Positions 3,353-17,834 of a stretch of 41,267 nucleotides of DNA are shown piece by piece. The notes under the pieces are model-generated. The model searched no databases. It was not told where the DNA came from and saw nothing but the letters and a program-made list of their open reading frames with translations. Both the position numbers and the translations under genes were made by a program. This stretch comes from Desulfobacterales bacterium GWB2_56_26 (GTDB lineage: Bacteria > Desulfobacterota > Desulfobulbia > Desulfobulbales > Desulfocapsaceae), in NCBI GenBank assembly GCA_001799365.1, contig MGTI01000202.1, forward strand, positions 191-41,457, in the 5' to 3' direction. Each line of letters opens with the position of its first letter. The first letter of the stretch is position 1.

Positions 3353-5152
3353 ATGCAGGTTGCATTTTCCGGCATGTGCGAGATTCCCATGGTCATCAGA
3401 AAAACCGGCAGTGCCTTTATTGTTTTTATTTTCCTGCTCGTTATCTTCAAGACCGCCTGCTGCGCCGATTTCAAAAAGACCAAAATTGCCGTTTTAGATT
3501 TTGAGCTGCGCGGCGATTCTTTCACCACCAAGGATATGGGAGGAATCGTTGCTGAATGGTTCACCACGGCCATGGTCCAGGACGGTCGTTTCGAAGTGGT
3601 CGAACGAGCCCTGCTGAAGAAGATCGTGGAGGAACAGAAACTCGGCATGACCGGCCTGATCGACGAAAATAGTTCGGCTCAGCTGGGCAAGATTCTTGGC
3701 GTCAAGACCATCATTTCCGGCTCAGTTCTCCAATTCCAGGACACCATCGAGGTAAACGCCCGGATCATCAACGTCAACACCGGGTCGATAGTCGCGGCTG
3801 AGAATGTCCGCAGTAATACCAGTGAAAACCTGAAGAGTCTCATCGAGCTTCTGACCTCGAGGATTGTCAAGAATTTCCCGCTCACCGGCTACGTTGTGAA
3901 AAAGCGCGGCGATTCCGTGCTGATCGACCTGGGGGCCACCTCGGGGCTACAGCTCGGCATGGAATTCATCGTCTTCAAGGAAGGTGAAGTCATCAAGCAT
4001 CCGAAAACCGGCATCGTTCTCGACGTGGAACAAATCCATACCGGAAAAGTCAGGATCACCGAGATCAGCCTCAACACTGCGAATGCGGAAATACTCAGCG
4101 AAGAAGACGGCCGAAAGATTGCCGTCGGCCAACTGGTGCAAAATATCCGCAAACCGGAGAAGGTCGACGATAAGACCGAGCCACAGTCGCTGAGTCAGAA
4201 AGAGGAAAAACCACCAGAGCAACCGGTCAACAAGCAGGAACCGGAACCCGAAACGGTGCAGCCGCCGGAGCCGGTCAAACAGGAAGGCCCTGCCGGCGAA
4301 AGAGACAATCTGGCCTCCGGCGGCCAGGGTCCCCCGGTTCTGCCGCTCCCTCTCGGCACCTATATGATGGGCAGCAGTCGTTTTCCCGAGAAACCCGCCC
4401 ATTATGTAAAAATTGAAAAGCCCGTGCAGATGACGATGACCGAGATCACCTTCGACGATTATGAAAAATTCTGTCTTGAAGCCGGCTACCCCTTCCCGGA
4501 CGACTCCAGCTGGGGCAAGAAAGATCGACCGGTCATCAACGTCAACTGGCAGGATGCTCAGGCCTACGCAAAATGGCTGACCGAACAGACGGGGGTAACT
4601 TACCGGCTGCCTTTTGAAACGGAATGGGAGTGGGCGGCCGGAGCCGGTTCGGGGACCATCTATGCCTGGGGCAACTCGCTTATGCCGGACATGGCCAACT
4701 GCAAAGGCTGCGGCGCCTTGGGAGAAAAGCAGCAGACATCGCCGGTCAGGAGCTTTCAGCCCAATAAAACGGGCTTCTTCGATATGACCGGCAATGTCTG
4801 GGAGTGGGTGGAAGACTGCTGGGTTGAAAACTATGCGGGTGCCCCGGAAGACCAGTCACCCCGAATGTTTACCGGAAAATGCGGTAACTATACGATCCGC
4901 GGCGGCGCCTGGAACTCAAAGGAAAAGCAGATCTCGGTGACTTCCCGATTGGGAGTATGGGTCGATACCAAAAGCAATTACATAGGATTCAGGCTGGTTC
5001 GCGATCCGAACAGCTCCTCGCAGGCAAAAACCGATGCCCCTCCCCAAAGGGAAGGCGATACAACACTGCAGGCAGCCGCAGATCAAGGCAGGGACAATCT
5101 CTCCGCAGGAAAAACAATAACTCTGTCCTCAACATCGGAGAACGAAAAATAG
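3353..5152 (+). CDS. CsgG-like domain protein fused to a SUMF1/formylglycine-generating-enzyme-like domain
   Basis: N-terminal KIAVLDFELRGD...VAEWFTTAMVQDGRFEVVERALLKKIVEEQ...GVKTIISGSVLQF is CsgG-like; C-terminal YMMGS...TFDDYEKFC...PVINVNWQDAQAYAKWLTEQTG..YRLPFETEWEWAA...GFFDMTGNVWEWVEDCW..RGGAW...GFRLVRD is SUMF1-like. Confidence 0.85.
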   Translation: MQVAFSGMCEIPMVIRKTGSAFIVFIFLLVIFKTACCADFKKTKIAVLDFELRGDSFTTKDMGGIVAEWFTTAMVQDGRFEVVERALLKKIVEEQKLGMTGLIDENSSAQLGKILGVKTIISGSVLQFQDTIEVNARIINVNTGSIVAAENVRSNTSENLKSLIELLTSRIVKNFPLTGYVVKKRGDSVLIDLGATSGLQLGMEFIVFKEGEVIKHPKTGIVLDVEQIHTGKVRITEISLNTANAEILSEEDGRKIAVGQLVQNIRKPEKVDDKTEPQSLSQKEEKPPEQPVNKQEPEPETVQPPEPVKQEGPAGERDNLASGGQGPPVLPLPLGTYMMGSSRFPEKPAHYVKIEKPVQMTMTEITFDDYEKFCLEAGYPFPDDSSWGKKDRPVINVNWQDAQAYAKWLTEQTGVTYRLPFETEWEWAAGAGSGTIYAWGNSLMPDMANCKGCGALGEKQQTSPVRSFQPNKTGFFDMTGNVWEWVEDCWVENYAGAPEDQSPRMFTGKCGNYTIRGGAWNSKEKQISVTSRLGVWVDTKSNYIGFRLVRDPNSSSQAKTDAPPQREGDTTLQAAADQGRDNLSAGKTITLSSTSENEK

Positions 5153-5217: not shown

Positions 5218-5955
5218 ATGAAGATCTCTTTTTACCTCGTATGCCTGATACTCTTTTTTCAGGGACCTTCCTTGGCGTTCGGCGGGAATCTGGCCCTCAT
5301 CGAAAAGCGGCTGATCGAGCTCGATAAACTGAATCAGCAGGCGGTGCAGGAAGCGGGGGAAATACCAAAAAACGGTTCGGTTGAAATCGAAGCCCGCGTG
5401 AAACCCGGAGTTGCCGACCCCAATACGGACACAGGGATCGGTGAAGGGCGGTTTCAATTTTCCAAAAAAGCCGTTTTGGCTATCGAGGAAAAGCTGCCGT
5501 TTACGGTGCAGATAAGTTCCAGCCGCTCGCAGCAGCAATGTTATCGCGTCGCCGCAATGTTGCGGCGAACCGGATATCCGGCGTTTACCGCATCGATTAC
5601 CCTGAAAGATCAAGGACTTTGGCACCGAATATTCGTCGGCTCTTTCGCCTCCCGGGAAGAGGCGGAAAAGACCAGACAAAACCTGGAAAAAGACGAGATC
5701 CCCGATGGCATGATCAGGAGCATGCCCTATGCAGTGCAAATCGGCAACGCAGGTTCGCTGGAAAGTCTAAAAAGCCTGAGGGATAAACTTTCAGCCATGC
5801 AGTACATGCCGTACACCAGTTATGTACGGGAGACCACAAGCAATCAGCCGCAGACGCGTCTGCTCATCGGTGCCTACGAGACCAAAGAGGATGCGACCAA
5901 CCTGCTGGCCGCCCTTCGCTCGGAAGGACTCACAGCGATAGTGGTGAACCGCTGA
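5218..5955 (+). CDS. Secreted protein with two SPOR-like repeats
   Basis: Signal peptide; LPFTVQISSSRSQQQCYRVAAMLRRTGYPAF...RIFVGSFASREEAEKTRQNL and PYAVQIGNAGSLESLKSLRDKL...RLLIGAYETKEDATNLLAAL. Confidence 0.75.
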   Translation: MKISFYLVCLILFFQGPSLAFGGNLALIEKRLIELDKLNQQAVQEAGEIPKNGSVEIEARVKPGVADPNTDTGIGEGRFQFSKKAVLAIEEKLPFTVQISSSRSQQQCYRVAAMLRRTGYPAFTASITLKDQGLWHRIFVGSFASREEAEKTRQNLEKDEIPDGMIRSMPYAVQIGNAGSLESLKSLRDKLSAMQYMPYTSYVRETTSNQPQTRLLIGAYETKEDATNLLAALRSEGLTAIVVNR

Positions 5956-6005: not shown

Positions 6006-7238
6006 TCACGAATCCCGCAGGGCGAGGGCCGGCGAAAGAGATGCCGCCCGCCGGGCGGGATGGAGTCCGAAAACGATCCCGGTCGCTATGGCCGAAAGCG
6101 GGGCTACGACGAGGCTGAAGGTTGAGAAAACCACCGGCCAGTCGGCAATTTTCTCGATGCCGAGTGACAGCAGCAGGCCGGCCAACACTCCCCAGAGACC
6201 GCCCGACATTGTCAGCAGAATGGAATTCCATAAGTACAGGCTGACAATCCTGCTCTTCGGTGCCCCGAGCGCCATGCGCAGGCCAATTTCCCTTGTCTGC
6301 TCGGCGATATTGGCGAGCATCACGTTCATCACCCCGATGCCTCCCACCAGTAGGGAAAGCCCGGCAATCGCCCCCATGATGATTGAGAAAACCTTCTGAC
6401 TCTCCCATGCCTCCCGAAGCAGAGTGACCGGCACGACGATGGTGAAATCTTCAACATTCCGGTGATTCCTGGCGAGCAGCTGCTTTACCTGGTCGGCAAT
6501 GGAAAGAATCGCCGCCTCCTGCGCCGCAGCGAGGGAAATGACCAGGCCATCGAGCCTGACGCGACCAGCCACGTTCTTGGCAAATGGCATGCTCGATATC
6601 GGCAGGATGACGGTATTATCGAAATCGAGTGTGGAGAGTCCGGTCCCTTCGGTGAGCAGACGACCCCGCGGAGCAGCCACCCCGACGACGGTCGAGGGAT
6701 GATGGTCGAGCTGAACGGTTGCCAGGATATCGCTCTGCAGGGCCACCGCGACGGATCTGCCGATGACGCAGGAATTGCCTCGATAGGCGATATCGCCGTC
6801 ATCGATCGACCGGCCTTTTTCAACGATGAGCCGTTCCGCTGCGAACCATTCGCTCGTCACGCCCAAAACGGTTGCCACCGCGGTCCTGCTGCCCGCCCTG
6901 ACCAGGACATTATCCTTGCGGACATACGCGCCGACCGTGCCCCTGCTACCCAGCCACTGTCCGATATGGATGTTGTCCTCCTGGCTGAGGCCCTGGGACA
7001 GGTTGATTGCGCTGTCATTGTGCCGTAAACCGGAGGCTTCCACCCGCAAGGTGTTGATACCCATGGAGCTGATCTTTTCAAAGGCCGCTTTCTTCGCCCC
7101 TTCGCTGATGGACAGCATGGCGATGAGCGCCGTCACGCCAATGCCGATGCCAAGACTGCTGAGGAGTGATCTGAGCGGCCGCCTGCGCAGGTTTTTCAAG
7201 GCATCTTCGATATCCAGCAGAAATTGTTGGCGCAGCAT
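6006..7238 (-). CDS. MacB/FtsX-type ABC transporter permease
   Basis: N-terminal MacB periplasmic core-like sequence and C-terminal FtsX segment GGIGVMNVMLANIAEQTREIGLRMALGA. Confidence 0.88.
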   Translation of the reverse strand: MLRQQFLLDIEDALKNLRRRPLRSLLSSLGIGIGVTALIAMLSISEGAKKAAFEKISSMGINTLRVEASGLRHNDSAINLSQGLSQEDNIHIGQWLGSRGTVGAYVRKDNVLVRAGSRTAVATVLGVTSEWFAAERLIVEKGRSIDDGDIAYRGNSCVIGRSVAVALQSDILATVQLDHHPSTVVGVAAPRGRLLTEGTGLSTLDFDNTVILPISSMPFAKNVAGRVRLDGLVISLAAAQEAAILSIADQVKQLLARNHRNVEDFTIVVPVTLLREAWESQKVFSIIMGAIAGLSLLVGGIGVMNVMLANIAEQTREIGLRMALGAPKSRIVSLYLWNSILLTMSGGLWGVLAGLLLSLGIEKIADWPVVFSTFSLVVAPLSAIATGIVFGLHPARRAASLSPALALRDS

Positions 7239-7244
7239 GGCGGA

Positions 7245-7916
7245 TTACCGGGGAGAAGGCGGCTTTTCCAGCCGCAGGACCCGACTGCCGTAGCGGATGG
7301 CTTCCGGATCGTGACTCACCATGACCACGGTGCAGCCTTGCCGGGTCTGCTCCTGCAGGAGTTTCATGATTTTTTCGGAGTTGTCCACATCGAGGCTGCC
7401 GGTCGGCTCATCGGCGAAGATCAGGGTCGGCCGCCGCACCAGAGCCCGGGCAAAAACCACCCGCTGCATTTCCCCACCGGAGAGGGTATCGGGATACCGG
7501 TCGGCCAGATCGGCCATGCCGATATAGGAAAGCAATTCGCGGCAACGGCTGTCCATGTTATTCTTACTTGCCGGCTCACCGTAATGGAAGGGCAGGGAAA
7601 TATTTTCGGCGACGGTCCGGTCGACAAGGAGATGCGGCGTCTGAAAGATAAAGCCGAAGGCGCTGTTGCGCAGCAAGGCGACTTGACTCTCCTCCATCGC
7701 CGTAAGACTCTGTCCGCCATAACGCACCTCTCCCCGGGATGGCCTGTCCAGCCCCCCGAGAAGATTGAGCAGCGTCGATTTTCCGGCGCCCGATGGTCCT
7801 GAAATCACCAGGAATTCCCGAGGCTCTACCACAAGTGACACTTCCGGCAACGCGAGGCTCCGGTTCTTCCCGGCAACAAAGGACCGGGATACCTTATCCG
7901 CCTCCAGCAAGGCCAT
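7245..7916 (-). CDS. ABC transporter ATP-binding protein (LolD/MacB-ATPase type)
   Basis: Walker A SGPSGAGKST, signature LSGGEMQR, Walker B LIFADEPTGSLD. Confidence 0.92.
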   Translation of the reverse strand: MALLEADKVSRSFVAGKNRSLALPEVSLVVEPREFLVISGPSGAGKSTLLNLLGGLDRPSRGEVRYGGQSLTAMEESQVALLRNSAFGFIFQTPHLLVDRTVAENISLPFHYGEPASKNNMDSRCRELLSYIGMADLADRYPDTLSGGEMQRVVFARALVRRPTLIFADEPTGSLDVDNSEKIMKLLQEQTRQGCTVVMVSHDPEAIRYGSRVLRLEKPPSPR

Positions 7917-7922
7917 CAGCGG

Positions 7923-9371
7923 CTACTGCCCCTCGGCATACACTCTGTCACCTGCCGCGATGCCGTCAGTGATCTCGGCCCACAACTGGCCGCGGTCGCC
8001 TACAGTAACCGGGACATCCTGCGAACCGTCCTGATGACTGCGGCGAACCATCGACTGGCTCTCCTGGTAAAATACAGCACTGAGCGGCACAGCGACGGCA
8101 TCCTCGACCTGCCGGTAGACAATGCGGGTGGTGACGGACATGCCCACATGGATGTTGCCGGTATCGCCCGAAAGACGGATACGCGCGTAGAATCTTCTGA
8201 GATTCTCATTATTTTCATCTTCTTTGGCAAGAGAAGCCACGGACTCGACGGTGCCCGTAAACACCTTGCCGGGGAAGGCATCGACCTCGATCTCGGCGCT
8301 CATCCCGGCGGCAACTTTCGCCACATCCACCTCTCTGATATGGATTTCGGCAATGAGGGCGCTGGTATCGGGAACCTCAAGAAAAGTCTGGCCAACCCAG
8401 ACCGAATCGCCGATCTGAATCTTTCTTCGGCCGTTTTCCCTTGGCAACTCAGGATAGAGAAGGATGCCGTCGGTCGGAGAATGGACATCGCAATTGACGA
8501 TTTCCGTTTTGGCGAGACCCAGGGCGGCGACCTTGTTCTCTTCATTGCGCCGGCTTTTTTCCACCTCCGCCTCGCGGTTCTGGATCAGCAGTTCCGCCGT
8601 CCGTTTCACCCTGTCGAGATTGCTCTCCGCGCCATCGACCAGGAGCTGCGCCTCACGCTGCATCTGCGGCCAGACATAGGCCTTGAAGTTGTCAAGCTCC
8701 GCCCGGGCAACCGCCAGCTGTTCTTTGGCGGTCGACACCTTATCTGCCGCCTTGTCACGTTCGCGCAGGCTGACATGGCCTTTCTCCAAGAGGATATCGA
8801 GATCGGCAAGCTCGCTCTGGCTTAAGTCAAGCGATCTCTCCGCCTGATGAACCTGCTGCTCGAGCGTCTTTCTTTTCAGCGGACCGGAACCGTTTCGGAT
8901 ATTATCCGCCTGAATCCTGGCTATCTCGACCTTTCTGGTGGCCTCTTCGATTTTGCCTGCCTCCTCCTCTTTTTGCAGGGACAGCATCTTCTCGGCGGCT
9001 GCCGAGGTCGCCTTGGCATCGGCGAAAGCCTGCTCGGCCTTTTGCAGATTGTCGAGAAAGGGTTTGGCATCGAAGCGGGCCACCAGCATCCCTTTCCTGA
9101 CCTCGGTGCCCTCCTTGACCAGCCAGACGATTTTCGCCTGGTTGCTTGAAATAAGGGAGGTGATCGGCGAGATGCCGGCCGGGCGGATCACGCCGCGCTC
9201 GATGACCTGGAGGGGAAAGGATCTTTTTTCAACCGTGATGAGTTGCATGGGTTGCGTTTTGCCTGCACCCACGGCAAAGAGGTAATGCCAGCTCAGCCAG
9301 GCGCCGGCGATCAATGCGACGATTCCTGCAGCCATAGTCCTGTATGTGGTAACTCTACCGTACAGTGACAT
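7923..9371 (-). CDS. HlyD/MacA-type periplasmic adaptor
   Basis: N-terminal TM segment, biotinyl-lipoyl-like halves, long coiled-coil, beta-barrel region; lies between the ABC and TolC genes. Confidence 0.85.
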   Translation of the reverse strand: MSLYGRVTTYRTMAAGIVALIAGAWLSWHYLFAVGAGKTQPMQLITVEKRSFPLQVIERGVIRPAGISPITSLISSNQAKIVWLVKEGTEVRKGMLVARFDAKPFLDNLQKAEQAFADAKATSAAAEKMLSLQKEEEAGKIEEATRKVEIARIQADNIRNGSGPLKRKTLEQQVHQAERSLDLSQSELADLDILLEKGHVSLRERDKAADKVSTAKEQLAVARAELDNFKAYVWPQMQREAQLLVDGAESNLDRVKRTAELLIQNREAEVEKSRRNEENKVAALGLAKTEIVNCDVHSPTDGILLYPELPRENGRRKIQIGDSVWVGQTFLEVPDTSALIAEIHIREVDVAKVAAGMSAEIEVDAFPGKVFTGTVESVASLAKEDENNENLRRFYARIRLSGDTGNIHVGMSVTTRIVYRQVEDAVAVPLSAVFYQESQSMVRRSHQDGSQDVPVTVGDRGQLWAEITDGIAAGDRVYAEGQ

Positions 9372-10839
9372 CGTTCATCCTCTGCGGTTCGGGACTTGCG
9401 GAATCATCCGTACCATCAAGCGACATGGCCACCCACTGCCGATCCAGGACACCAAGATTATAGGCCAGTGTGGTTGCCGCAATGTTATACGCCGTCATCG
9501 ACCTGGAGATATTGACCTCGGCCTCGGAGTATGCCGATTCCGCATCGAGCACCGCGAGATTATCGGAGAGTCCTTGTTCATAACGGGTCTTGGCGAGATC
9601 AAGGGCCATCCTCGCCTGCTCCAGTCGTTTGATATTTATCTGATGATTTCGCTCCTCGGCGAGGAGGTCCTGAAAGGCCTCTCTGGCCTCTCTGGTGATT
9701 TTGCGCTGCAACGCCTCTTTGCCTCGGTGCAGTTTCGCCTTCTCGACCTTTTTCCGCAACAGGGCACTTTCCTCATTGAATCTGTCGAAGGTGGACATCA
9801 TCTCCAGTTGAACCGCCCAATTGGTCTCGTCGAGAGAAAGCGCATCCTCGCTCGAATTCCCCTCTCCGCGCTGCTCCAGCACGAAGCTGAGACCGACATC
9901 GGGGGCCAGATTCTGCTTAGCCTTGAAGGTTTCCGCCTCGTTGATCTCGACACTCACCCGATAGGCCTGCCAGTCCAGGCGGGTGAGGAAGAGATCCTCT
10001 TCCCACGACTCGGGGATGACAGGAACCATCTTATCGATGGCATCCGGTACCTGCATCGCATGATCATCCGCTATTCTTACCATCTCCCGAAAGGCGTCTT
10101 CGCCCCGTTGCTTCTGCCGCAGCTGATTTTCCCTGGCGCTCTCGGCGTCAAGCACGGCCAGTTCGGCTCGGTAGACGTCGACCTTGGAAACCAGCCCCAC
10201 CGACTGCCGCGACACCGCGGAATTCAGGTGCTCCCGGTTGCGGGTGAGGGCCTTTTCCACCTTGGCGAGGAGCTGTTCGGCAAGAGCCAGATCGTAATAT
10301 TTCTTTACCGCAGAAAGAATCAGAGTCTGTCTTGCCCGCTCGGTCTTGATCTCCTCTTCTTTCTGCCGCAATTGCGCCACAGTCAGATCGCTTAAGTTGT
10401 ACTTCGCTCCCCAACGGCGAAACAACCCCTGGGATACTCGCACATAGGCTTTGGCGTTGGTCGAATTCTCGACCACATAGCCCGCATTGTCGTCAATCCT
10501 GTTGCCGACCATCCCGTAGGCAATCGAACTGCCGATACCGGTCTCTTTGCGCATCTCCAGTCCGATCTGCTGGGAACCGGTCCCCTGGCGGATACCGAAA
10601 TTAGTCAACGGCACCAGTCTCGTATCGAACCGATGCTCCGCACTGTTGATGTCCATCTTGCTGAACAGCAGATTATCACGGAGATCGTACGCCGCATCGC
10701 TTTGCGTAAGAGTGAGATCGATAGTCTGCATGAGACCCAGGCTTTCTGCCGCTTTGGCTGAAGCCGGGGGCTGCACGAGAAGGCAGCATAGCAGTGAGGA
10801 GATGAAAAAACGAACCACTTTTCCCGATATGAATGGCAT
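9355..10839 (-). CDS. TolC-family outer-membrane efflux protein
   Basis: Signal peptide, TolC-like repeated helical hairpins (SAVKKYYDLALAEQLLAKVEKAL...); overlaps the adaptor gene start by 17 bp. Confidence 0.82.
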   Translation of the reverse strand: MPFISGKVVRFFISSLLCCLLVQPPASAKAAESLGLMQTIDLTLTQSDAAYDLRDNLLFSKMDINSAEHRFDTRLVPLTNFGIRQGTGSQQIGLEMRKETGIGSSIAYGMVGNRIDDNAGYVVENSTNAKAYVRVSQGLFRRWGAKYNLSDLTVAQLRQKEEEIKTERARQTLILSAVKKYYDLALAEQLLAKVEKALTRNREHLNSAVSRQSVGLVSKVDVYRAELAVLDAESARENQLRQKQRGEDAFREMVRIADDHAMQVPDAIDKMVPVIPESWEEDLFLTRLDWQAYRVSVEINEAETFKAKQNLAPDVGLSFVLEQRGEGNSSEDALSLDETNWAVQLEMMSTFDRFNEESALLRKKVEKAKLHRGKEALQRKITREAREAFQDLLAEERNHQINIKRLEQARMALDLAKTRYEQGLSDNLAVLDAESAYSEAEVNISRSMTAYNIAATTLAYNLGVLDRQWVAMSLDGTDDSASPEPQRMNDVTVR

Positions 10840-11170
10840 AAAATTAAAAAATCCACGACTGAACGATCATCACGTGCAAAAGGACGGCTGAACGCTGCTG
10901 CCGTTGCGATACAATCAAGTTCCGGTACCATACCATATCGTCCCTATTTATCAATTCATCTTTCCTTGACAGTGTAATGTTTGAAAGTATAGAATTATCA
11001 GGTAGGTACAGGTTTGGGAAACCATTGGTGTTCCGAGCCTGGAACGCACCGGCACTCCTTCACGAATCCGGCATCCGTAGCGCATTGAATGGCATTTCCC
11101 TCTTCACGGATCGCACTGGTTTTGGAACGTGTGCAGTTGGCCATCAAACTCTTCTTGGAGCATGACAACA

Positions 11171-11554
11171 ATGAAAGCACTCTTGTTCTTGGTTCTCGCC
11201 CTTGCCGTTTTTTTTGCTTCGCTGGCATCTTTTGCAGGGCAAACCGGCAATCTCAATTCAACCCAATTCGAGCAGAAGCTGATTGCCGTCGAGGACCTTG
11301 CCGCAGAGTTCCATTCCGACAGCGGCACCGTTATGGTGACGGCCAGGATAAAGAATGTCTCGCAGGCAATGATCAGAGGTTATGCAACAATTTACCTGTT
11401 ATCCGCCGAAGGCAAAAAAATTCATGCCTTCCAGGAAGAGGTCAACAGTGGAGAGGTCTTTGCCCATGGTACGACAGTCGATTTCAAAGCGACCTCGAAA
11501 GTAAGCGACCTCAAAAAGGTGGCTTCGATCAGTGTCGATTTTACCCAGAGCTGA
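11171..11554 (+). CDS. Small secreted protein of unknown function
   Basis: Signal peptide MKALLFLVLALAVFFASLASFAG; start could also be 11162. Confidence 0.6.
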   Translation: MKALLFLVLALAVFFASLASFAGQTGNLNSTQFEQKLIAVEDLAAEFHSDSGTVMVTARIKNVSQAMIRGYATIYLLSAEGKKIHAFQEEVNSGEVFAHGTTVDFKATSKVSDLKKVASISVDFTQS

Positions 11555-11566
11555 GCAGAACGAAAA

Positions 11567-11596
11567 ACGGCCCGGTCTTGATCGAGACCGGGCCGT
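11567..11596 (-). terminator. Terminator hairpin between convergent genes
   Basis: ACGGCCCGGTCT-TGATCG-AGACCGGGCCGT, perfect 12-bp stem; T5 follows in the minus-strand direction. Confidence 0.8.
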
Positions 11597-11626: not shown

Positions 11627-12340
11627 TCAGTCTTCGGGGGTAAATTCACTGACATCCTGAGCATCCACGTCTACGACTTTAGGTTTTCCCGAGTAGTGGA
11701 TGGTACTCGCATCGGTCCCCGTCCCGGTCAATTTACCGGTAACATTGAGGCGGGCCGTGGTTGCATCGCTTGCCTTGATGCTGATATTTCCGGCGTTGAG
11801 TTCGGAACCGTCGAATTCGGCAGTATCCTGAATCTTGAGATCGAGCGATTTGACGGTACCGGAAATTTTCAGGGTAGTTGTCCCGTGGAGGTCGACCGAC
11901 AATTTGTCGTTCACGAACGAACTGCAGTCGACGACCAGTTCGCTGCTGCCGTCAGCGGTAATAGATGAGAGGTCTTTTTGGACAATATCGACAACAAAGG
12001 AATTTTCGGTGCAGTACGATTCGGTGGTTGAGAGGCTCAGCTTGTTATTCTTGACCACCGCGTCAATCAGGGGATGAAGATTCTTGTCGGCCGTGACAGC
12101 AACCTCGGACTTTGGCCCGCAACTGAGATTGACGACGAATACACCTTCAACTGCCAGATCCTTAAACGCCTCAAGGGAACGCTGTTCCTTGACGATTATG
12201 CCATTGCCTTTGCGGCAGTTGCCCCCGACAATTGTGCCGGTATTCACTTGATTGTTCACTCCGATGTTGATCTCGGTTGTTGCCCCAAGCAGGAAAACCA
12301 GGGCCGATCCGGCAAGCGCATACTTTATTCCGATATTCAT
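11627..12340 (-). CDS. DUF2807 / head-GIN-domain-like putative auto-transporter adhesin
   Basis: SLEAFKDLAVEGVFVVNLSCGPKSEVAVTADKNLHPLIDAVVKNNKLSLST...ITADGSSELVVD..., serial short beta-strand pattern typical of DUF2807. Confidence 0.75.
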   Translation of the reverse strand: MNIGIKYALAGSALVFLLGATTEINIGVNNQVNTGTIVGGNCRKGNGIIVKEQRSLEAFKDLAVEGVFVVNLSCGPKSEVAVTADKNLHPLIDAVVKNNKLSLSTTESYCTENSFVVDIVQKDLSSITADGSSELVVDCSSFVNDKLSVDLHGTTTLKISGTVKSLDLKIQDTAEFDGSELNAGNISIKASDATTARLNVTGKLTGTGTDASTIHYSGKPKVVDVDAQDVSEFTPED

Positions 12341-12353
12341 CCAGCCCCCTTCA

Positions 12354-12659
12354 TTACTCGATGGCGATGAACGGCTTCTTCAAATCATTTTTAGTCATTT
12401 TACTCTCCGGGGTATCGCCGTAGGTCCGCATATACACGGTTCTCGTTTCCCCGGAAACCGTATCCAGCACAAAGGCGCCGATCACGCCGCTCTTGTTGTC
12501 GATCTGGGTTGCCCAGGAGGAAATGGCATATCTGCCGAAATTTAACGTATTGTTTTGAAAATCCGAAGAAGCTCCAAGGAGCAAAAACACCGCGGCAAGA
12601 CTAATAATCCCCAAAGAAAAATACAGAAACCTTTCCCGCCATTTTTTCGCAGTATTCAT
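12354..12659 (-). CDS. Small membrane-anchored protein of unknown function
   Basis: N-terminal TM helix then NFGRYAISSWATQIDNKSGVIGAFVLDTVSGETRTVY; in line with the operon. Confidence 0.6.
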   Translation of the reverse strand: MNTAKKWRERFLYFSLGIISLAAVFLLLGASSDFQNNTLNFGRYAISSWATQIDNKSGVIGAFVLDTVSGETRTVYMRTYGDTPESKMTKNDLKKPFIAIE

Positions 12660-12738
12660 AATGAGCCAAAAAGTTAAAGATCAAGCGGATGGAAGAACCT
12701 TTGGGGATCCTCCATCCGATTAGTCAAAAAATCAGCAA

Positions 12739-13530
12739 TTACATCTGCTTATTGGGTTCTCCGGATGCCGGGGGAGCTTCCGCGGCCACCTGTTTTTTGG
12801 CTTCAGAGAAGTCGTCAACCGAGGCGCCATGGCCTTCAACCTCCACAAATTCGCCAGCCCCGGGGATGGTAGCACCCAACAGCTCCTCGATATCCTTGAC
12901 ATTGACCCTGAACTTGACAAAGGCGTTCCCTTCTTCATCCCAGCCATAGTCGACGAGATCGGCGAGATAGGTGGTGGCCATGACTTTGACTTTGACCACA
13001 TCCGAACTCAACATATAGTTTTCAACCGTAGTCTGGCTCTCAAGGGTAAAACCCACCACCGTCTTCACCAGGTTTTTGTAACCGTCGAGTTCTGCCGCCC
13101 GCAGGGCTTTTATGGGGCCGGCGTTGGCCGGGGTGGAGGTGGCAAAGGCCACTCTCTTGAAAATCTTGCCTTTCAGGCTCAGCACCTGGCCATCGATATT
13201 GGTGATTTCATCGAGGCTTATCGACGCGGTGGCCTGGGCGATATCCTTCTCGGCATCATACACAACTTCATCGATTTTGATGCCCTGGATATCGGCACTC
13301 GTCTTGGATTCGGTCTTGCCGACAAAGCTTGCGGCAATCATATCGACCACTTCCTCGCTCGACCGTATCTTCAGGCCATATACCGACTCAACGATCGCAC
13401 GCTCGGCGAGCACCCTGGCGGCCCGGGTCGACATTATTTTCTTATTCCCGGCCCAGGCGACACCAACACTTCCCATCACTGCTATCAGCAGCACCACAAA
13501 AGCCCTATTCTTTGACAACATGGCTGTCAC
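12739..13530 (-). CDS. LPP20-like secreted protein
   Basis: Signal sequence ending in AWA; IKALRAAELDGYKNLVKTVVGFTLESQTTVENYMLSSDVVKVKV resembles LPP20-family proteins. Confidence 0.6.
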   Translation of the reverse strand: MTAMLSKNRAFVVLLIAVMGSVGVAWAGNKKIMSTRAARVLAERAIVESVYGLKIRSSEEVVDMIAASFVGKTESKTSADIQGIKIDEVVYDAEKDIAQATASISLDEITNIDGQVLSLKGKIFKRVAFATSTPANAGPIKALRAAELDGYKNLVKTVVGFTLESQTTVENYMLSSDVVKVKVMATTYLADLVDYGWDEEGNAFVKFRVNVKDIEELLGATIPGAGEFVEVEGHGASVDDFSEAKKQVAAEAPPASGEPNKQM

Positions 13531-13567
13531 TCCTTTAATGTCCTTTTTTGACCGGCAGATTGGTGTC

Positions 13568-15034
13568 TTACCACTCGTCAGCAGAGAGCTGACGTCCGAA
13601 TTTCTTTGGTTTTACGGCCGGAGCTGCGGCGGCCGGAGCCGCGGCGGAAGCTTGCTCGACCGCAGCTGCTTTCCTCTGGATCACCGGCGCAGGAGCTGCC
13701 TGAACCGCCTGTTGAGCCTGAGCAACCTCTTGAACGGGCTCTGCGGCCTGAACAACAGGAGCCTCGACAGCCTGTTGCTGCGCGACAGGTGGTGCCTCGA
13801 CCGGAGGTGCAGTTTTCTTCTGAGCCTTGGCGGTGGATTTTGGCTCTGGGACATCCTGGGCCTGCATCTGTCTAGCAAAATAATCGTTGATCTTTGTTCT
13901 TCTGGCGAGCACTTCGCGACTGACGGGAATGGTGAGATACAATTTGGTGAACAAGGCTTCGCTGATGCCCTTTTCATCACCGGCAAACGACGGGTCAAAG
14001 CTCCGTAATGCCGCCTGGGTATTGCTGTCCAGCCTGTTGTTGATGACAACATCATGGCCATGGAGAACCAGCCATTGCTGGGCCGCACCTATTCGATCAG
14101 CCCGCTCCATCCTATAGTAGGTAGCGGAAATGGAATCGAGGACAACCTTGTCCGGCTGGACATCGTCGCCCATTAGGCGCCAGTACGGCAGGGCCAGATA
14201 TTTGCCTATCATCTGGATCATGCTCACCTGGACCAGAACCCGCACCGCTTCGTGGCGGCCCTGGACTTTTTTGATAGAGCCTTTCAAACCGAAAGTCGGT
14301 CCGAATAAGGTAATGCCGACCTCCTCCTCGCGCAGGCCTTTATACACCTCCATGCTGTTGGTGGTGGTCATCCGCGGGATTCCCGCGAGCGTCTGGAAGT
14401 CCTTGAGATTGAAGTCGAGGGTTATCCTCGCCTTGCCCGTTTTTGAGGTATCTCCGTAACTTGCCCCGGCGGTTTCGGAAGGAAACCATTTGGGGGCGCC
14501 GGTAAATTCGGCTTCGACATCCAGGTTGGTACCCTCACCCCGGGTTTCCAGGCCACGATCGAATTCGGTAATGCCACCAGTGATAACCACGTCGGGGATA
14601 GTCTTGTTATCGAAGCTGCTGTATCCGGAAACCATCTGGTTCTGAATATAGGACGGGTTGTATTCGATGAAAATGATATTGCCACCGATGTTGTTGAGCG
14701 TGCTTTTCATTATCTCGGTGATGTTACGCTGGATCTCCCCACCGGTCGTTACCGAGGTTCCCGTTTCATCGGCAATGTCCTGACTCTGCACCTTCATGAG
14801 TCCCGTGTCATAAATCTGCGACATCAAACCGAGATCGATGAGTGCTTGTGAATAGGAAGTTACCTTTTCCACCGGCGCACTCTTTTCGAGCTGGACATCG
14901 ACATTCTTAGGATTCATATCGCCACAAGAGGACATAAGAACGAGCGCCAGGCCCAACAGGAAGCAGTTGACAGCGGTTTTTGATTCCCCGCCGCAAGCCA
15001 GCTGACGAGCATTCACAGTTTTGTTGAGTCTCAT
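13568..15034 (-). CDS. HfaB/CsgG-like outer-membrane lipoprotein with C-terminal peptidoglycan-binding-like segment
   Basis: Lipobox LVLMSSC; SAPVEKVTSYSQALIDLG...GGEIQRNITEIMKSTLNNIGGN...DVVITGGITEFD...ITLDFNLKDFQT...GRHEAVRVLVQVSMIQMIGKYLALPYWR is CsgG/HfaB-like. Tail is Ala/Pro/Gln-rich. ORF extends to 15088, but the start at 15034 fits better. Confidence 0.75.
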   Translation of the reverse strand: MRLNKTVNARQLACGGESKTAVNCFLLGLALVLMSSCGDMNPKNVDVQLEKSAPVEKVTSYSQALIDLGLMSQIYDTGLMKVQSQDIADETGTSVTTGGEIQRNITEIMKSTLNNIGGNIIFIEYNPSYIQNQMVSGYSSFDNKTIPDVVITGGITEFDRGLETRGEGTNLDVEAEFTGAPKWFPSETAGASYGDTSKTGKARITLDFNLKDFQTLAGIPRMTTTNSMEVYKGLREEEVGITLFGPTFGLKGSIKKVQGRHEAVRVLVQVSMIQMIGKYLALPYWRLMGDDVQPDKVVLDSISATYYRMERADRIGAAQQWLVLHGHDVVINNRLDSNTQAALRSFDPSFAGDEKGISEALFTKLYLTIPVSREVLARRTKINDYFARQMQAQDVPEPKSTAKAQKKTAPPVEAPPVAQQQAVEAPVVQAAEPVQEVAQAQQAVQAAPAPVIQRKAAAVEQASAAAPAAAAPAVKPKKFGRQLSADEW

Positions 15035-15084
15035 AATAATTTTATCCAGTAAGTAGTTCATGAGCGATACACAATACGCTGCCT

Positions 15085-15423
15085 TCAATCTGAAATATTG
15101 GTCTTCGAACCTTTGCTCTGGTCGATAATGTAAATATCTCCCTTCACCTTGCTGCCGGCACCCAAGACCACGCTATTCATGTTGGCATCGCCTGACTTGC
15201 CGCCAATCTTGTCCTTATCGCCTTTTTTGGTGGCCGCTTTGCTCTTAGCATTCATAACGATGAACTTGATGTTTTGATCCCCTTTTCCTATCTCATCGTC
15301 CTTCGCTATCCCTTCATCGTCAAACTTGGAAATACCGTCATCCAGGTCGCCGCCAAAGGCTGCGCCCGATAAAAGAATCAAGGAGAGAGATAAGAGAAGG
15401 CTTAGAGTGATTCGAGTTTTCAT
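15085..15423 (-). CDS. Small secreted companion of the repeat protein (possible minor subunit/nucleator)
   Basis: Signal peptide MKTRITLSLLLSLSLILLSGAAFGG; C-terminal GDANMNSVVLGAGSKVKGDIYI echoes the ANMGSV repeat motif of the neighbouring gene. Confidence 0.6.
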   Translation of the reverse strand: MKTRITLSLLLSLSLILLSGAAFGGDLDDGISKFDDEGIAKDDEIGKGDQNIKFIVMNAKSKAATKKGDKDKIGGKSGDANMNSVVLGAGSKVKGDIYIIDQSKGSKTNISD

Positions 15424-15496
15424 TTTTGCATCTCTCATGAGTATAAAGAAGAAGTGTCATCGGAAAACGGATCGAGCGTGTCAAGCTCTTCCCAGC

Positions 15497-15537
15497 GTCC
15501 CTCTTGACTCAGCGGTCATCCGTGAATCAAGAGGGAC
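15497..15537 (-). promoter_or_regulatory. Intercistronic stem-loop between repeat protein and downstream gene
   Basis: GTCCCTCTTGA...TCAAGAGGGAC, 11-bp perfect arms; no T-tract in the minus direction. Confidence 0.6.
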
Positions 15538-15556
15538 CTCTGTCGTTCTTCTTCAG

Positions 15557-16738
15557 TTATTGTACCTGAACCGAGCCCATGCTCGCCTCATTGCCCTTGC
15601 CGATGGCGATGTTAGCCGCCTGCTTGACGTCTGAAGTATTGGTGATGACGCCGGTTTTGCCGACGGTGCCGCCCTTGATATCGACAGAGCCCATGCTGGC
15701 GGTATTGTTCTCGCCGATAGCGATATTTGCAGCCTGCTTAACGGTGGAGGTGTTGGTGACTTTGCCGTCCACCTTGGCATTCTGCATGTTTATCGAGCCC
15801 ATGTTGGCGGTATTGCCTTTGCCGATGGCGATGTTGGCAGCCTGCTCAACCGTGGATTTGTTCGTTACTACACCGGTTTTGCCGATCTCACCGCCCTTCA
15901 TGTTGACCGAACCCATATTAGCGGTGTTGTTCTCGCCGATGGCGATGTTGGCGGCCTGCTTGACTTGCGAATCATTGGTCAGTTTGCCGTCGACCTTGGC
16001 GTTTTTCATGTTGATCGAGCCCATATTGGCCTCGTTGCCTTTGCCGATGGCGATATTGGCGGCCTGCTCAACATTCGATTTGTTGGTGACCACACCGGTC
16101 TTGCCGATTGAGCCACCCTCCATGTTGACAGAGCCCATATTGGCTTTGTTGTTCTCGCCGATGGCGATATTGGCGGCTTGCTTGACTTTCGAATCGTTGG
16201 TCAGTTTGCCGTCGACCTTGGCGTTCTTCATGTTGATCGAGCCCATGTTGGCCTCGTTGCCCTTGCCGATGGCGATGTTGGCGGCCTGCTTGACATCGGA
16301 TTTGTTCGTTACCACACCGGTCTTGCCGATAGAGCCGCCCTGCATGTTGACAGAGCCCATGTTGGCCTTGTTGTTCTCGCCGATGGCGATGTTGGCGGCC
16401 TGCTCGACTTTCGAGTCATTGGTCAATTTGCCGTCGACCTTGGCGTTTTTCATGCTCACCGAGCCCATGTTGGCCTCGTTGCCCTTGCCGATGGCGATGT
16501 TGGCGGCCTGCTTGACATCGGATTTGTTCGTTACCACACCGGTCTTGCCGACAGTCGAATTTTTGATGTCGATAGATCCCATACTGGCCTTGTTGTTTTC
16601 ACCGATGGCGATGTTGGCAGCCTGCTCGACTTTGCTGTCGTTCGTAACCTTGCCATCGATCTTCGATGCGGCCCAACCGGTGGAAATACTCATTGCGACA
16701 GCCAATCCCAATGCACTTGCTAACAATCTTTTTTTCAT
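15557..16738 (-). CDS. Curlin-like alternating-repeat secreted protein (candidate amyloid/adhesin subunit)
   Basis: Start MKKRLLASALGLAVAMSISTGWAA (16738) with AGAAGAGGG upstream; ten tandem units with core QAANIAIGxxNxAxMGS. The upstream 58-codon extension of the ORF is probably not translated. Confidence 0.8.
   Translation of the reverse strand: MKKRLLASALGLAVAMSISTGWAASKIDGKVTNDSKVEQAANIAIGENNKASMGSIDIKNSTVGKTGVVTNKSDVKQAANIAIGKGNEANMGSVSMKNAKVDGKLTNDSKVEQAANIAIGENNKANMGSVNMQGGSIGKTGVVTNKSDVKQAANIAIGKGNEANMGSINMKNAKVDGKLTNDSKVKQAANIAIGENNKANMGSVNMEGGSIGKTGVVTNKSNVEQAANIAIGKGNEANMGSINMKNAKVDGKLTNDSQVKQAANIAIGENNTANMGSVNMKGGEIGKTGVVTNKSTVEQAANIAIGKGNTANMGSINMQNAKVDGKVTNTSTVKQAANIAIGENNTASMGSVDIKGGTVGKTGVITNTSDVKQAANIAIGKGNEASMGSVQVQ
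15560..16645 (-). repeat. Tandem repeat array: five A/B dyads of ~74 codons (38 + 36 aa)
   Basis: A units TN(D/T)SxVxQAANIAIGENNxAxMGS...GKTGVV alternate with B units TNKSxVxQAANIAIGKGNxANMGS..NAKVDGKL; the last B unit is truncated. Confidence 0.9.
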
Positions 16739-17834
16739 GACGTATGCCCTCTTCTGATGTTTTTTGATGTGTTGAACAAAACCTGCTTCTTCATTATAAC
16801 AGAATCCTTGTTTGCGCCTCCTCCTGTTGCAATGTTGAGATTTTGGCCATTTATCGGCAAAAAGACATCTTGTGTTGAATCCTCTTCCTGTAATATATAT
16901 GGGCATCGCCAATACTCACGTTGCTCATACCGACAGCCCCCGATGCCTTCCGGGCTAACTGTCTGGAACCTATTCCGACCGTTCCATCGCCACATCGATT
17001 TGCTGAACTCATTATAGCATCAATTGCTTTGCCTTTATCAAGGGCTATCGACAAATGAACAGCTGCCATTTCCTGAAAACGACTATCCCGAACGTATCAT
17101 GATCGATCAAAACATTCTCAAAAAAAAGTCCTAGTGAGCACTGATCTGTTTCCTATTAGTGACTGTGAGACCTCTGCAGGTTCAAAGAGATTCTTAAAAA
17201 AGTAATTTTTTTATGGCGTCGTTAATGTTTTTCTCTCAGCAAGACTTCGGAGATGTCGAGATTGCCCCTTATTTATTGACCGGACCCTCACTGGAGGAGA
17301 AGACCAATCTCTAACATTAACAACTATGGAAGTCAGTAATTCATCATTCCGCTGCAAGGCACCAGCCGCTTCCCGACGTAAATACACGGAGAGAGTAAAG
17401 GCTGTGAGCCAGAGGAGAGGTCCCAAAATGGCTGCCGATGAACACTGGAAGAGAGAAAAGACGAGCGGGAAAGACAGCAGAAACCACCTGCCCAAGGTTT
17501 CCGGAATATTTGCCTTACACTTTTTGCAAAGAAGAACCAGCAACATACCACCACCAAAACCTTGCAGTCTTTTCCGTGGGATAGGAAATTTATCTTAAGT
17601 ATGACAACTTAATGTAATGGGAAGATTATAATGCATCGCCCCCTCCACTTCAAGGAAGGCGAGGAAAAAGATCCGGAAGAAATCGGGAAAACATGATATT
17701 TTGCCTCCTTGCCTCCGAACCTCTTTCGGCCTTGTACGATCCTCATTATGAGTATTGTGATATGAACTGTAAAACGACACGCCGTCTCGGATACTTCCGT
17801 TTCGGTTCCACCACCCCTACAGAAGAATAGTGCC

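Follow-up and report, generated by a model that had tools for sequence, protein, structure and literature searches.

What kind of secretion system has a CsgG-like gene next to a secreted repeat protein, with no recognisable curlin in the same operon? The question is raised by six genes on the minus strand of a 41,267-nucleotide stretch (the window) of contig MGTI01000202.1, part of the 4.5-Mb draft genome of Desulfobacterales bacterium GWB2_56_26. A sequence-only reading had taken these genes for a self-contained type VIII-like secretion system for an amyloid or beta-solenoid fibre. Our analysis indicates that the operon very probably encodes a CsgG-related outer-membrane pore and a secreted repeat protein, rod-like and distinct from curli. 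We consider it probable that the two act together in a type VIII-like, CsgG-based system that exports a non-curlin beta-helix protein across the outer membrane. Of the earlier reading, the CsgG-type pore and the predicted solenoid cargo are supported, and the amyloid is not. The gene set recurs in many sediment and water bacteria and is, as far as we found, apparently undescribed; no earlier paper on the operon, and no link to cable bacteria, was found in open-access text.

Profile comparison and a structural model identify the pore protein as a CsgG-family outer-membrane lipoprotein. Searches of Pfam, NCBIfam and PDB sequences with the single protein gave nothing useful, and Pfam did not match it alone. 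A scan of one genome per species yielded 113 pore relatives, of which 80 were kept. When these 80 orthologues were compared by hhalign with a CsgG-family alignment (E. coli CsgG and relatives), the match reached 96.7% (E 3.3e-10). Control comparisons of the other operon families with CsgG mostly gave 0.2-3.5%, and a single match of 13% was confined to the signal peptide. Pfam CsgG was detected in 23 of the 80 orthologues and PG_binding_1 in 36. The AlphaFold model, built with 80 sequences, had a mean predicted local distance difference test score (pLDDT) of 82 and contained four long strands followed by helices. These strands are predicted to form two membrane hairpins, 149-176/188-212 and 218-243/247-257. 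Ranks 1-25 of a Foldseek search of the PDB with this model were all CsgG chains (best E 7.6e-10) and FlgT came next, so that the CsgG/HfaB-type lipoprotein proposed from the sequence has its structural match.

In the pore protein a lipobox, LMSSC, ends at Cys37, and the lipobox pattern was present in 70 of the 80 members. It is followed by the CsgG fold (residues ~80-290), a PG_binding_1-like helical domain (~296-394), a low-complexity linker of Ala, Pro and Gln, and the tail KFGRQLSADEW, for which the conserved consensus is GRxLSxxEW. In E. coli CsgG the constriction consists of rings of Tyr66, Asn70 and Phe71 (PMC7304575). Exactly seven residues separate DxTG from the Glu-Ile of the next helix in 70 of the 80 orthologues; only 13 of these 70 have an aromatic residue in the loop, and the window protein, with TSVTTGG, has no Tyr66/Asn70/Phe71 ring. 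The loss of this ring marks a subfamily, and the window protein stays within the CsgG fold family.

The repeat protein, the putative cargo, is rich in Asn, Gly and Ala. Its repeats alternate between 36 and 38 residues with the consensus xGxVTNxSxVxQAANIAIGxxNxAxMGSVxM, and tandem repeats were also detected by TRF. Profile counts of the repeats in homologues range freely from 2 to 25, and the C-terminus, ASMGSVxV[EQK], remains constant. AlphaFold with 22 sequences predicted a regular beta-solenoid (pLDDT 93.7, predicted template modelling score 0.89), and each 37 residues hold five to six short strands in the prediction, a pattern that suggests to us a turn of 18-19 residues. The nearest solved folds were the beta-helix adhesins TibA (E 3.3e-4, probability 0.54) and Ag43, both with low TM-scores. 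A Pfam CsgE match of the repeat protein, with no individually significant stretch, was taken as a repeat artefact, and matches to YajR_YAM, hirudin and others were rejected as artefacts of repeat composition.

Further repeat-protein sequences were observed in the same genome and in relatives. A relic of a second, long repeat protein directly precedes the intact repeat gene (Table 1). A similar relic was found in a close relative (L038; tblastn, E 3e-8), and other relatives have an intact long paralogue of 700-1500 amino acids beside the short gene. Five more repeat-protein genes are present in the window's own genome (L166:5604-7154, L166:8824-10953, L167:5590-6453, L168:2563-4008 and L169:2713-3597). 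One of them is ~90% identical and has a sigma-factor-like gene nearby as well as a long paralogue, and another has a FecR-like start. A single pore may serve several cargos in this genome.

All six open reading frames (ORFs) of the sequence-only reading were found in the order it gave, and the strong terminator that it placed at the operon end was confirmed. The gaps between the six genes are 133, 50, 46, 79 and 13 bp, consistent with a single transcription unit. The gene order, whose absence from relatives would have spoken against the sequence-only reading, is also conserved; the same order recurs in relatives, counted over up to 77 loci, and is therefore not due to chance. In the tree, the pore relatives span Desulfobacterota, Nitrospirota and Gammaproteobacteria, with single cases in Campylobacterota, Planctomycetota and Elusimicrobiota, some of the taxon names being labels of metagenome-assembled genomes. 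The nearest named relatives of the window pore belong to Desulfobulbaceae and Desulforhopalus. In loci with sufficient sequence for the count, the small companion adjoins the pore gene in 65 of 77 and the repeat gene lies at most 6 kb upstream of it in 58 of 69 testable loci. Neighbours found less often were the LPP20-like gene (40/71), the gene for the 101-aa protein (43/72) and the DUF2807 gene (30/69). The repeat and companion genes are downstream rather than upstream in a few loci (L046, L049 and L083). Within the order the pore gene is patchy, occurring in 16 of 58 relatives. Two copies of the module were seen in some relatives (L021/L023 in G008, L026/L027 in G016 and L022/L035 in G005), and the opposite strand of L023 carries one more repeat gene.

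The LPP20-like protein matched FlgP chains of solved flagellar rings in the PDB (E 5e-5 to 7e-4) and 9hmf_C (E 3e-6). It arose by internal duplication, its halves being homologous (E 5e-6), and is by sequence comparison a tandem FlgP-type homologue of two copies. Its gene goes together with the tail of the pore: 38 loci had both, 30 had neither and none was discordant. The tail pattern behind this count had been loosened after inspection of two exceptions, with the endings SDDEW and SEEEW; the stricter first pattern gave 35 loci with both, 0 and 2 discordant and 30 with neither (Fisher 5e-17). Related loci are not independent in such a count, and independent switches were counted on the tree. 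The perfect co-occurrence suggests to us, with moderate confidence, that the LPP20-like protein docks on the pore tail. As a candidate CsgE the LPP20-like protein was unsupported, with a profile comparison of 0.2%.

The other small proteins were compared with known curli components. For the small companion, neither the PDB nor E. coli CsgB gave a significant match, and this comparison does not support it as CsgB. The 101-aa protein has a conserved beta region, GRYQISSW...GAFVxDTVSGETKTVY, and resembles the last third of CsgF. Its match to Pfam CsgF had an E of 0.0011, below the cut-off, and was seen in 10 of 36 homologues. Profile comparison with eight CsgF sequences gave 3.3%, and the protein lacks NPxFGGNP, the conserved N-terminus of CsgF. 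A further match, between the 101-aa protein and the N-terminal region of sialidase B in the PDB, was discounted as fortuitous, the enzyme being unrelated. The sequence-only reading had seen no recognisable CsgB, CsgE or CsgF. For CsgB and CsgE this is borne out, as there are no curlin repeats and a search of 148 genomes of the order, the window's own included, yielded no CsgE; for CsgF it holds by profile comparison, apart from the trace in the Pfam match. We only infer that the LPP20-like, DUF2807 and small proteins could replace CsgE and CsgF, and the evidence pairing the LPP20-like protein with the pore is circumstantial.

It is possible to combine these genes into one export route. The repeat protein would cross the inner membrane via Sec and remain unfolded in the periplasm. 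Its exit would be a ring made up of several subunits of the CsgG-family lipoprotein, in a stoichiometry that we infer, and outside the repeat protein would fold into a rigid beta-solenoid rod that would be retained at the surface as an adhesive or structural filament. The peptidoglycan-binding-like domain would tether the pore to the cell wall. The pore's GRxLSxxEW tail would be the docking site of the FlgP-type tandem LPP20 protein, which would probably form a ring at the base on the periplasmic side. For the small companion, anchoring or nucleation of the rod is the probable role, comparable to that of CsgB or HfaA. A stronger proposal is that the operon represents a separate CsgG-based branch spread over several phyla, with beta-helix rods of varying repeat number, a wall-tethered pore, a tail-docked tandem FlgP-type ring and a solenoid filament in place of curlin amyloid; we regard this proposal as evenly balanced.

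Several observations weigh against such an export system. The pairing of cargo and pore rests on gene adjacency, the upstream repeat gene was not detected by profile in 11 of 69 loci, and the five extra repeat-protein genes of the window's genome sit away from its sole pore gene. AlphaFold is prone to over-regular solenoids for perfect repeats. Normalised by target, the TM-scores between the pore model and CsgG do not exceed 0.61; such modest values may be expected for the model of a lone subunit of a ring. The wall-binding-like domain is missing or replaced in other members of the pore family; DUF4384 matches 11 of the 80 homologues and TPR about six, apparently in its place (alignment A6, loci L038-L117). 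On the tree, the concordance of tail and LPP20-like gene is backed by only 4 well-supported independent switches; each of them is concordant, and a sign test gives p 0.125.

Other explanations start from the same pore. If the operon were a diverged curli system, the repeat protein would be a curlin-type amyloid and the small and LPP20-like proteins would be unrecognisable forms of CsgB, CsgF and CsgE. The CsgG family of the pore, the Asn/Gly-rich repeats with a GxxNxA motif that echoes curlin and the weak CsgF match of the 101-aa protein would suit this explanation, and curli operons have been reported in Desulfobacterota (PMC12822426). The repeat protein itself argues otherwise. It contains no QX10Q or canonical curlin motif, no curlin family is among the listed Pfam matches of the 22 repeat proteins, its repeats of 36-38 residues contrast with the 23 +/- 5 residues of curlin repeats (PMC10192328), and no curli entry is among the top 50 fold matches of its model. 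The amyloid nature suggested for it is therefore unsupported, and the beta-solenoid is backed by prediction. The profile comparisons with CsgF and CsgE and the lack of NPxFGGNP point the same way. Among 398 Desulfobacterota genomes the pore gene occurs in 9 and true CsgF in 9 others with zero overlap, a non-overlap that is not significant. Diverged curli is, in our judgement, quite improbable.

A holdfast-anchor (Hfa) type complex, in which a CsgG-like pore exports surface proteins that fasten exopolysaccharide to the outer membrane, is unlikely. HfaB is CsgG-like, the outer-membrane targeting of HfaA and HfaD depends on it, and the operon likewise pairs a small secreted protein with a larger repetitive one; but ORF and Pfam annotation of the window showed no polysaccharide genes inside the operon, and HfaA, known here from the literature, is curlin-like whereas the repeat protein is not. 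The CsgG-like protein could also serve as a scaffold in the envelope or as a ring of lipoprotein, like the FlgT/FlgP assemblies of flagella, and not as the exporter of the repeat protein. FlgT as the next fold match after CsgG, the FlgP match of the LPP20-like protein and the presence of a wall-binding domain would fit a scaffold. Against it stand the four long membrane-hairpin strands, which are like those of CsgG, the CsgG chains at all of ranks 1-25, and the near-universal neighbours, which are secreted repeat proteins and not flagellar genes; we hold a scaffold to be very unlikely. The export of a non-curlin beta-helix protein through a CsgG-type pore is the reading that we prefer.

Genes around the operon were also recorded (Table 1). 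The small secreted protein encoded convergently with the operon has a similar counterpart, in the equivalent position, in L038 (13631-14017), and L049 and L083 may have one too. Export genes lie downstream of the operon, and TolC and HlyD homologues also follow it in L020, L025, L027 and L028. Beyond them, a gene for a SPOR-domain protein comes after that of a 599-aa protein in which a CsgG/FlgO N-terminal domain is joined to a formylglycine-generating-enzyme-like domain.

Table 1. Features of the operon and its surroundings, with positions in the window.
Feature	Position	Strand	Details
Repeat protein, putative cargo	15557..16738	-	393 aa, Sec signal, ten 36/38-aa repeats, no Cys
Small secreted companion	15085..15423	-	112 aa, motif LDDGISxxxDD...NMNSVVxGAGSxVxGDIIIIDQSKG
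CsgG-family lipoprotein, predicted pore	13568..15034	-	488 aa, profile comparison and AlphaFold model
Tandem LPP20/FlgP-type secreted protein	12739..13521	-	260 aa from ATG; alternative GTG at 13530
101-aa protein, N-terminal hydrophobic segment	12354..12659	-	weak CsgF resemblance
DUF2807 (head GIN domain) secreted protein, optional downstream member	11627..12340	-	Pfam E 1e-20
Intrinsic terminator at operon end	11567..11596	-	12-bp stem, 9 GC pairs, T-tail
Decayed, frame-shifted relic of second, long repeat protein	16798..17069	-	tblastn to C-terminus of long paralogues, E 5e-4
Small secreted protein	11129..11554	+	convergent with operon
TolC/HlyD/ABC/MacB-type export genes	6006..10839	-	downstream of operon
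SPOR-domain protein	5218..5955		after the 599-aa protein
CsgG/FlgO-FGE-sulfatase protein	3353..5152	+	599 aa

CsgG is used in nanopore sequencing, and CsgG pores are known mainly as curli exporters. If our reading is true, a clade of CsgG with its own cargo, its own accessories and a rebuilt constriction would make the CsgG channel a general exporter of unfolded repeat proteins, and its members would form a natural set of pores with differing eyelets. A function would also be assigned to a repeat-protein family of sediment and groundwater that curlin-based screens should not see. A GTDB-wide curli screen required curlin repeats near csg genes (PMC12822426), and for this reason it should miss loci of the present type.

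The operon shares with curli (type VIII; CsgG, CsgE, CsgF, CsgA and CsgB) a CsgG-family lipoprotein pore, an adjacent, putative Sec-exported cargo with a predicted repetitive beta-solenoid and a small secreted companion. It is not canonical curli: CsgA/CsgB, CsgE and CsgF were each looked for and not found, and tandem FlgP-type and DUF2807 proteins are present instead. Its pore differs from that of curli by a short constriction loop lacking the Tyr/Asn/Phe ring, by the wall-binding-like domain and by the C-terminal tail. Flagellar-motor FlgP/LPP20 ring proteins are homologous to the LPP20-like protein (E 5e-5 to solved FlgP), but the operon protein has two fused copies and no flagellar context, and its gene is tied to the CsgG tail. 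The autotransporter adhesins TibA and Ag43 resemble the repeat protein in their predicted beta-helix (a weak fold match, for which we claim no homology), but the latter has no autotransporter barrel and its export would use a separate CsgG-type pore. Caulobacter HfaA/HfaB/HfaD, compared by literature description, likewise has a CsgG-type pore for surface proteins other than classical curli (PMC6707917); the operon differs in its accessory genes and has no holdfast genes. Its mode of action may resemble that of curli or of the Hfa anchor, with a different product.

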